Shown here in pieces: positions 35,356 to 38,011 of a DNA stretch of 64,000 bases. Every line of letters begins with the position of its first letter. The stretch's first letter is position 1. The notes beneath the pieces are model-generated. The model was not told the origin of the DNA and did not search any database. It worked only from the letters and a program-made list of their open reading frames with translations. The stretch comes from Gammaproteobacteria bacterium (GTDB lineage Bacteria; Pseudomonadota; Gammaproteobacteria; Pseudomonadales; Azotimanducaceae): positions 62,001 to 126,000 of the forward strand of contig JAUIED010000001.1 in the NCBI GenBank assembly GCA_030428905.1. The letters are read 5' to 3'. The position numbers were made by a program, and so were the translations under genes.

Positions 35356-36207
35356 TTAGGCAGCGATGGCAGCCTTGAGCTTTTTCATCGCACCCTTCTC
35401 GATCTGCCGGATGCGCTCTGCCGACACACCGTACTCATCCGCCAGCTCCTGCAGCGTCGACTTGTCATCCGCAAGCCACCGGCGCGCGATGATATCGCGC
35501 GAGCGCTCATCCAGCGCCGTCAGCGCCTGCTCCAGACGGCTGGTAGACGTCTCATACTCGTCTTCGTCGATGACGAGATCTGCAGGGTCGGCATGGGCTT
35601 GTGCGAGGAACGCTGCCGGCGCCATGGGTGCGTCGTCGTCATCCGCATCGGCACCGTCGAACGCCATGTCCATCGCCGCAAGGCGACCTTCCATTCGCGT
35701 CACTTCAGCTTCTGGAACGCCGAGATCGCGGGCCACCGCGCGGGTTTCTTCGTGGCTTAGCCAGCCAAGCTGCTTTTTGGCGCCACGCAAATTGAAGAAC
35801 AGCTTGCGCTGCGCCTTGGTGGTCGCCACTTTGACGATCCGCCAGTTGCGCAGGATGAACTCGTGAATCTCTGCCTTGATCCAGTGGACAGCGAACGATA
35901 CGAGCCGTACACCAACTTCCGGATTAAACCGCTTTACGGCCTTCATGAGGCCAACGTTACCCTCCTGGATCAGGTCCCCCTGGGGAAGCCCGTAGCCTTG
36001 ATAGCCCCTCGCTATGTGCACCACGAAACGCAGGTGACTCAAGACCAGCTGGCGAGCAGCTTCCAGGTCCTGCTCATGGTAGAAACGCTCTGCAAGCGCC
36101 TTTTCTTCTTCCGCTGACAAAACCGGGATCGCACCTACGGTCTGCACGTACGCATCCAGATCCTTGCCAGGCGACAAACTTGCCAGGTTCATGACATCAG
36201 TCGACAT
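35356..36207 (-). CDS. rpoH: heat-shock sigma factor RpoH (sigma-32)
   Basis: Alternative sigma factor for heat-shock genes, 283 residues. The N-terminal region 1.2/2.1 includes [21 protein letters not shown], region 2.2-2.4 [17 protein letters not shown] and [20 protein letters not shown], the RpoH-specific stretch [14 protein letters not shown], and region 4.2 [26 protein letters not shown] precedes the ATG. It follows ftsY-ftsE-ftsX, the classical order, but has its own 132-base leader with a CIRCE operator, so it is probably under HrcA control as well as read through from ftsX. Confidence 0.98.
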
Positions 36208-36238
36208 GTGATACCTCCGGTAACACTTGAACAGGTCA

Positions 36239-36268
36239 ATATTAGCACTCCTCCTTGGAGAGTGCTAA
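36239..36268 (-). promoter_or_regulatory. possible sigma-70 promoter of rpoH overlapping CIRCE
   Basis: On the minus strand TTAGCA (36268-36263) and TAATAT (36244-36239) are separated by 18 bases; each matches the sigma-70 consensus in four positions. The -35 box lies in the left half of the CIRCE repeat and the spacer covers the rest, so a bound repressor would block RNA polymerase. The boxes are weak and the call rests partly on their placement relative to CIRCE. Confidence 0.4.
36242..36268. promoter_or_regulatory. CIRCE operator (HrcA binding site) upstream of rpoH
   Basis: Perfect inverted repeat TTAGCACTC - nine bases - GAGTGCTAA, identical to the CIRCE consensus in both nine-base arms with the canonical nine-base spacer. 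It lies 35-61 bases before the rpoH ATG. CIRCE is the operator of the heat-shock repressor HrcA, usually found at groESL or dnaK operons; here it would place rpoH under HrcA. hrcA itself is not in the window. Confidence 0.93.
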
Positions 36269-36339
36269 CCGGTTTTGGTTCCCCAGGCGTGATCAACTTC
36301 TTGAATTCAGGCGGTTTTCCAAGCTCTACGGGAGCAGTG

Positions 36340-37296
36340 TCAGAGCACTTCCAGGTCGTGCAAGCGCTGACGTGCCGCTACCAGGGCCCCAGCAACACCA
36401 AGCCCGGCACCGGTGCAGAGCATCACCAACAGAAACGCCGGATCAAAGCCCGTAAACTCCAGTGTAGCGCCATAACTCCCGGCGAGTCGGGACAGCGGCG
36501 TTTCCACCACCAGCAGGGTCATGCTGAGGAGCATGAGCGCAACCAACGCACCACCAGCACCGTAGATGGCGCCAAAATAGAGAAAGGGGCGGCGCAGTTG
36601 CCGCTCCGTGGCGCCAACCAAGGTCTGTACCTTGAGCTCCTCCAGGCGCGCTTCAATGGCTAGCCGCACCGAGGTGGCGGTGACCAGCAAGGCACCAACG
36701 CCAAAGAGCACTGCCAGCACGCCGCTCAGCCGGCTCACCACCGTCGTGATGTCTGACACGCGCTCGAGCCAGGTCTTCTCAACCACCACCTCCTGCACGC
36801 CCGAGGCTTTGCCGGCGATGGCCGCAAGACGCTCGAGGTCAGGCACCGTGGCACCGGACACCAGCATGGCGCGCAGGGAGGCCGGCAGTGGATTTTCCTC
36901 CAGAAGCTCCAGCGCATCGCTCAAGCCGGTATGGGCGTGAAACGCCGCTAGTGCCTGGGTGGAGCTCGTTTCTTCAACCTCCTGCACCTGCGGCTCTGCC
37001 CTGAGCTGCTGCGCCAGCGCGCGTAACTCGGCTTCCGGGGTGTCGACCTTGAAGTACACCGATAGGCCGGGCCTGCCATCCCAATCGGAACCAACATCTG
37101 CCAGGTTGAGCTGCAGCAGGTACAACCCTGCCGGTAACGCGAGCGCTATTCCCACCAGCAACCAGACGATGAGGCTGGTTGCCAATCGCGCACTGATATG
37201 GTGCATGGCCTCGCGCACCACCCGGCCGTGGTCGCGGCCCCACCCGACCAAGCCGCTGCGGCCTTCCTGCGCGAATGGATCGTCCTTACGCGACAT
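36340..37296 (-). CDS. ftsX: cell division protein FtsX
   Basis: Permease-like partner of FtsE that activates periplasmic amidases at the septum. The 318-residue protein has a cytoplasmic N-terminus, a first helix around LIVWLLVGIALALPAGLYLL, a periplasmic domain (DWDGRPGLSVYFKVDTPEAE to VVEKTWLERVSD) and three C-terminal helices. NPLPASLRAML and the ARLEELKVQTLVGATERQLRRPFL loop are typical of FtsX. Its start overlaps the end of ftsE by 11 bases. Confidence 0.95.
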   Translation of the reverse strand: MSRKDDPFAQEGRSGLVGWGRDHGRVVREAMHHISARLATSLIVWLLVGIALALPAGLYLLQLNLADVGSDWDGRPGLSVYFKVDTPEAELRALAQQLRAEPQVQEVEETSSTQALAAFHAHTGLSDALELLEENPLPASLRAMLVSGATVPDLERLAAIAGKASGVQEVVVEKTWLERVSDITTVVSRLSGVLAVLFGVGALLVTATSVRLAIEARLEELKVQTLVGATERQLRRPFLYFGAIYGAGGALVALMLLSMTLLVVETPLSRLAGSYGATLEFTGFDPAFLLVMLCTGAGLGVAGALVAARQRLHDLEVL

Positions 37297-38011
37297 CGCT
37301 ACCCATCAGATCTGCAGACTCGTCGAGCAGTACCTCGCTTTCGAGCAGACGATCGCGCACCACGCGACCTCCCGACAGCTCGATGATGCGCTTGCCCATA
37401 CCTTCGATAAGCTCCCGGTCGTGGCTTGCGACAATCACCGTGGTGCCCACCTGATTGAACTGCTCGAACAGCGCCATGATGTCTCGGGAAAGCTCCGGAT
37501 CGAGATTTCCGGTGGGTTCATCCGCGAGCAGGATCTTTGGCCGGTTCACCACCGCGCGGGCAATGCCCACTCGTTGCTGCTCGCCCGTCGACAGGTGCGC
37601 AGGCAGCAGACGCTCTTTTTCCAGCAGAGACACGCGAGACAACGCCGCTCGCACGCGTCGGCCGACGTCGCGCTCACGCATACCGATGACCCGCAAAGGG
37701 ACGGCTACGTTGTCGAATACGCTACGGCCCGCCAGCAGGTGATGATCCTGAAAGACTGCGCCGATGTTGCGGCGATAGAAGGGCAAACGGGATTTTTTCA
37801 GGTTGGTGACGTTCTTGCCGTTCACCAGTATCTGCCCGCGGGTCGGCGTGTCGAGACGTAGCAGCAACTTGAGGAAGGTGCTCTTCCCCGCGCCAGAATG
37901 ACCGGTCAGGAAGCACATGGAACCCGCCTCGAACGACACGTCCACCTCTTTGAGCGCTTCCTGCCCGCTGGAGAAGCGCTTGGTGACGCCGTGCATCTCG
38001 ATATGGCCCAT
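37286..38011 (-). CDS. ftsE: cell division ATP-binding protein FtsE
   Basis: ABC-type ATPase of the FtsEX complex, 241 residues. Walker A is TGHSGAGKSTFLKLL, the Q-loop lies in IGAVFQDHHLL, the signature is HLSTGEQQRVGIARA and Walker B is PKILLADEPTGNLDPE. The C-terminal tail (about 20 residues after GGRVVRDRL) is longer than in E. coli FtsE (222 residues) and acidic. Lies three bases after ftsY. Confidence 0.96.
   Translation of the reverse strand: MGHIEMHGVTKRFSSGQEALKEVDVSFEAGSMCFLTGHSGAGKSTFLKLLLRLDTPTRGQILVNGKNVTNLKKSRLPFYRRNIGAVFQDHHLLAGRSVFDNVAVPLRVIGMRERDVGRRVRAALSRVSLLEKERLLPAHLSTGEQQRVGIARAVVNRPKILLADEPTGNLDPELSRDIMALFEQFNQVGTTVIVASHDRELIEGMGKRIIELSGGRVVRDRLLESEVLLDESADLMGSDVA

Follow-up and report, generated by a model that had tools for sequence, protein, structure and literature searches.

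Why should an operator for HrcA stand in front of the gene for sigma-32? Textbook accounts of gammaproteobacterial heat-shock control are modelled on Escherichia coli, in which control of rpoH acts chiefly through translation and turnover. In a 64,000-nt stretch of a gammaproteobacterial genome (hereafter, the window), a preliminary description had pointed to a perfect CIRCE, the operator bound by HrcA, 35–61 bp upstream of the rpoH start. We examined this site in the window, in the genome that contains it, and in relatives.

A CIRCE operator lies directly upstream of rpoH

The site is exactly where it had been described. In full it reads TTAGCACTC-CTCCTTGGA-GAGTGCTAA, with 0 mismatches to the operator of the HrcA/CIRCE regulon, and the distance of 35–61 bp to the rpoH ATG holds, given the rpoH coordinates below. 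With up to 3 mismatches allowed, the window holds no other CIRCE match; 0 of 100 shuffled controls contained a match, and the chance expectation was 0. The site and its surrounding genes are as follows.

36242-36268, no strand assigned: CIRCE operator, perfect TTAGCACTC-N9-GAGTGCTAA, conserved 5' of rpoH in relatives
35356-36207, minus strand: rpoH, sigma-32, 283 aa (profile search: TIGR02392 rpoH_proteo, 409 bits, above the cut-off of 323)
36213-36218, minus strand: Shine-Dalgarno sequence GGAGGT of rpoH, from the sequence
36340-37296, minus strand: ftsX, 5' of rpoH (best match TIGR00439 FtsX_Gneg, 239 bits, slightly below the cut-off of 255)
37286-38011, minus strand: ftsE (TIGR02673, above cut-off)

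CIRCE thus falls between ftsX and rpoH. Because the order ftsE-ftsX-CIRCE-rpoH is co-directional, rpoH is the sole candidate target of the operator.

The preliminary description had staked its reading on an hrcA gene in the same genome, an assembly of 5.2 Mb in 357 contigs. The gene (PF01628) is present, in two pieces at contig ends: its N-terminal part closes contig C185, beside a gene that we take from its sequence to be recN, and its C-terminal part opens contig C295, followed by grpE and dnaK. The HrcA DNA-binding domain scores 19.7, slightly below the Pfam cut-off of 21, in this gene split by a contig break; hrcA is unbroken in sister genomes. The search for other CIRCE sites added one, so that the genome-wide total at up to 3 mismatches is two, at rpoH and at groES (contig C347). 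The second site, upstream of groES (MKIRPLHDRVVVRR...), sits downstream of a sigma-32-type promoter, CTTGAAA-N12-CCCCTATTA. The same scan found no CIRCE 5' of hrcA, and HrcA feedback would therefore take its route via rpoH and GroEL and not act on hrcA directly. Several other families of the class, unlike the window's genome, have a third CIRCE near hrcA.

The rpoH operator tracks hrcA across Gammaproteobacteria

We scanned the rpoH upstream regions of relatives for CIRCE, a check that the preliminary description had suggested, and found it in step with hrcA. In a near sample of 38 genomes, comprising the window's own and relatives, CIRCE precedes rpoH in the majority of the genomes of the window's own family, and several further families of the order have it there too. 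It was present in 24/29 hrcA-positive genomes and 1/9 hrcA-negative genomes, the single exception (G026) being a genome that is 75% complete. Several genomes of the window's family encode two RpoH paralogues (G005, G012, G018 and G024, as well as G006 and G027). Genomes of the family with two copies mostly lack CIRCE at rpoH despite the presence of hrcA; in G006 and G027, one of the copies has it.

A class-wide survey, with about one genome per gammaproteobacterial family, yielded 129 rpoH upstream regions, many from fragmented genomes, which were searched for CIRCE at up to 4 mismatches. The operator was found at rpoH in 89/97 hrcA-positive and 5/32 hrcA-negative genomes (Fisher p 7e-16, in a test made without a tree). 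The effect is large and spread over many families, which makes simple relatedness an unlikely cause of the link between site and hrcA. Retention at the same gene and co-occurrence with hrcA are features of the HrcA/CIRCE regulon, and both are seen here. The preliminary description, which had placed CIRCE normally at groESL or dnaK, accordingly understated its range: rpoH is routinely among its targets in Gammaproteobacteria that carry hrcA. Eight hrcA-positive families have no CIRCE at rpoH, nor do five genomes of the window's own family, which indicates that the wiring is dispensable. Positive genomes carry 1–4 CIRCE each, and a reversed control pattern was almost absent.

Named genomes with CIRCE at rpoH include Alcanivorax jadensis, Parahaliea mediterranea, Haliea, Halioglobus, Luminiphilus, Ketobacter and Pleionea sediminis, and the site also occurs in Woeseiaceae, Kangiellaceae and K189A genomes; the loci examined in Pseudomonas, Acinetobacter, Halomonas and enterobacteria have none. 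Four genomes (G051, G118, G148 and G155) have a perfect or near-perfect CIRCE at rpoH and no hrcA that we could find, which may reflect missing sequence or another repressor. One locus (L190, genome G045) has a tandem pair of CIRCE-like palindromes 5' of rpoH, the outer being TTAGCAGTC-N9-GAGTGCTAA.

Outside the class, in a thin phylum-level sample, most genomes beyond one family have zero CIRCE or one remote from rpoH. In that family of the same phylum, f162, the pairing recurs: CIRCE lies directly 5' of rpoH in seven genomes (G183, G191, G194, G198, G214, G222 and G230). G222 holds four CIRCE, two of them near each other on contig C138.

The operator shares bases with conserved promoter elements

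The preliminary description had noted, in part rightly, weak -35/-10-like boxes overlapping the operator. A simple scan of the region for sigma-70 promoters and terminators returned nothing, and the sigma-70-type assignment made below therefore comes from conservation only. What relatives reveal there is a promoter of the sigma-E type, together with an extended sigma-70 -10; both share operator bases.

To define these elements we aligned 116 rpoH sites on CIRCE and compared them with 37 groES CIRCE sites. Across the rpoH sites, the CIRCE arms are conserved and the spacer and outer flanks vary. A sigma-E-type -35, GGAACTT, stands at a fixed distance 5' of CIRCE; its GAAC occurs there in 70/116 rpoH sites, against 0.7 in shuffles. 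The matching -10, TCTnA, is made of the final two left-arm bases and the start of the spacer and follows the -35 by 16 nt in 61 rpoH sites, so that the strict sigma-E pattern is present in 61/116 rpoH sites and 0/37 groES sites. The right CIRCE arm and three flanking bases form an extended sigma-70 -10, TGCTAAAAT; scored as TGnTA..T, it is found in 104/116 rpoH sites and 0/37 groES sites. At groES the promoter lies upstream, with CIRCE after its -10, and neither the GGAACTT -35 nor the extended -10 occurs in any of the 37. Since both elements are missing from the groES sites, the rpoH arrangement is no copy of that at groES.

The corresponding candidate elements in the window are listed here.

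36276-36281, minus strand: sigma-E-type -35, GAACCA within GGGGAACC, supported by the fixed-distance GAAC of relatives and placed 16 nt before the -10
36255-36259, minus strand: sigma-E-type -10, TCCAA, in the CIRCE spacer
36239-36247, minus strand: extended sigma-70 -10, TGCTAATAT, overlapping the right CIRCE arm, supported by TGnTA..T conservation
36263-36268, minus strand: -35-like TTAGCA for the extended sigma-70 -10

A sigma-E promoter has a GGAACTT-like -35 and a TCnnA-like -10 separated by 15–17 nt, and the window provides GAACCA-N16-TCCAA. These elements are imperfect, and their register is shifted by two bases with the N16 spacing kept; a sister genome (G003) reads GAACCA-N16-TCTAA. 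RpoE itself is encoded in the window's genome (TIGR02939, 298.6 bits; cut-off 236). Judged by sequence, the conserved promoter under the operator is sigma-E-like, resembling E. coli P3, with an overlapping extended sigma-70 -10. Among rpoH upstream regions that lack CIRCE, the sigma-E pattern was found in 3/35, against 0.9 in shuffles; as this is no clear enrichment, we do not claim universal sigma-E control after the loss of hrcA.

A proposed HrcA-rpoH circuit and its alternatives

We consider it very probable, on these comparative grounds, that the CIRCE at rpoH is a functional HrcA operator, repressing rpoH by way of nested sigma-E and sigma-70 promoters within a GroEL-titrated feed-forward loop to groESL. 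With GroEL sustaining its activity, HrcA would sit on CIRCE and cover both the sigma-E-type promoter and the overlapping extended -10 promoter. In other bacteria, HrcA activity or binding is stimulated by GroE (PMC6032397, PMC8533110). Heat or unfolded protein would titrate GroEL, or HrcA might be inactivated directly by heat, and the operator would be vacated. The empty operators would derepress rpoH and groESL together; newly made sigma-32 would then activate groESL further, through the sigma-32-type promoter 5' of its CIRCE, along with the remaining regulon. Once GroEL was restored, HrcA would become active again and close the loop, giving a coherent feed-forward loop with chaperonin feedback.

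Could the palindrome instead work as RNA, the rpoH leader folding into a hairpin that serves mRNA stability or thermosensing, and not as a DNA operator? E. coli rpoH mRNA is a thermosensor, and a strong leader hairpin is predicted here if the site is transcribed through. However, there are 75 cases in which one arm alone has changed, 34 of them with pairing lost, against only 4 in which both arms have, and on this covariation record we rejected a hairpin as the main role. The conserved promoters, moreover, would begin transcripts within or past the palindrome, and the region has no match in Rfam. One-sided variation of the arms, together with the tracking of hrcA by CIRCE at rpoH, is what is expected of a protein-binding site, and we give the RNA explanation very little weight; the palindrome may have an auxiliary role of this kind, with a leader hairpin possible on read-through from upstream. 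We find it scarcely credible that HrcA no longer governs rpoH here, whether because the operator is a relic or because its binding has no effect. A few hrcA-negative genomes do retain sites, one of which (in G102) has decayed to 3 mismatches, but where hrcA is kept the arms are perfect or near-perfect over class-level divergence, sites are mostly lost where hrcA is lost, and the operator overlaps conserved promoter elements.

A different doubt concerns the promoter. HrcA may bind as we propose while sigma-70 is the only factor that uses the promoter, GGAACTT being recognised by a different ECF sigma factor or having some other role, with no link to envelope stress. The genome holds ten additional, weaker RpoE-like matches, which are other ECF-type candidates; GAAC is missing from its fixed place in 40% of rpoH CIRCE sites; and rpoH regions without CIRCE are not clearly enriched in the pattern. 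Against this, both elements and their spacing of 16 agree with E. coli rpoH P3, and the genome encodes a true RpoE. We regard sigma-70-only transcription as possible, albeit unlikely.

If most families that have kept hrcA place HrcA above sigma-32, the E. coli scheme would be a special case, and HrcA/CIRCE repression and sigma-32 activation would form one hierarchical network. The nested geometry would bring envelope stress and the load on the cytosolic chaperonin together on one stretch of about 45 bp.

Comparison with known systems

HrcA/CIRCE control of groESL in Bacillus subtilis, Campylobacter jejuni, Helicobacter pylori and other bacteria uses the same operator sequence, with HrcA activity raised by GroE (PMC6032397, PMC8533110). 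Here, by contrast, the gene targeted encodes a sigma factor, and the operator lies nested within a different, sigma-E-like promoter rather than directly 3' of a groES-type promoter.

A CIRCE at rpoH is of a kind already known. In Geobacter sulfurreducens, a perfect CIRCE was predicted about 50 bp 5' of rpoH and another at groESL (Rodionov et al. 2004, PMC545781, Table 8), in a genome that, like the window's, carries both hrcA and rpoH. Geobacter also has CIRCE at hrcA-grpE-dnaK-dnaJ, which the window's genome does not (PMC545781). That prediction, the only report of CIRCE at rpoH found in the literature searched, covers one species of another phylum and includes neither promoter geometry nor a class-wide survey. 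The class-wide prevalence of the site, its co-loss with hrcA, and its nesting in a P3-like sigma-E promoter appear new within the literature searched.

In Agrobacterium tumefaciens, HrcA and sigma-32 are both present and both act on groESL, as we propose here. Going by its title, the 1999 work of Nakahigashi et al. (cited in PMC11764788) reportedly ascribes to RpoH and HrcA of this organism differential and independent roles, and not control of rpoH by HrcA.

The closest likeness and the sharpest difference are both with E. coli. The gene order ftsX-rpoH is shared, and rpoH P3, GAACTT-N16-TCTGA, has the N16 spacing of the window's GAACCA-N16-TCCAA; E. coli P3 depends on sigma-E. E. coli, however, has neither CIRCE nor hrcA, and the window's genome has both; lacking hrcA, it looks like an exception, or derived case, among Gammaproteobacteria. 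We see the arguments as evenly poised on whether control of rpoH by HrcA, by way of a CIRCE nested in a sigma-E promoter, is the ancestral gammaproteobacterial wiring, a term that we draw from the distribution of sites rather than from a reconstruction. In that event, the ancestral circuit would have joined envelope stress to chaperonin load, and the E. coli mode, in which sigma-32 is set by mRNA translation and turnover, would have been derived after hrcA was lost.
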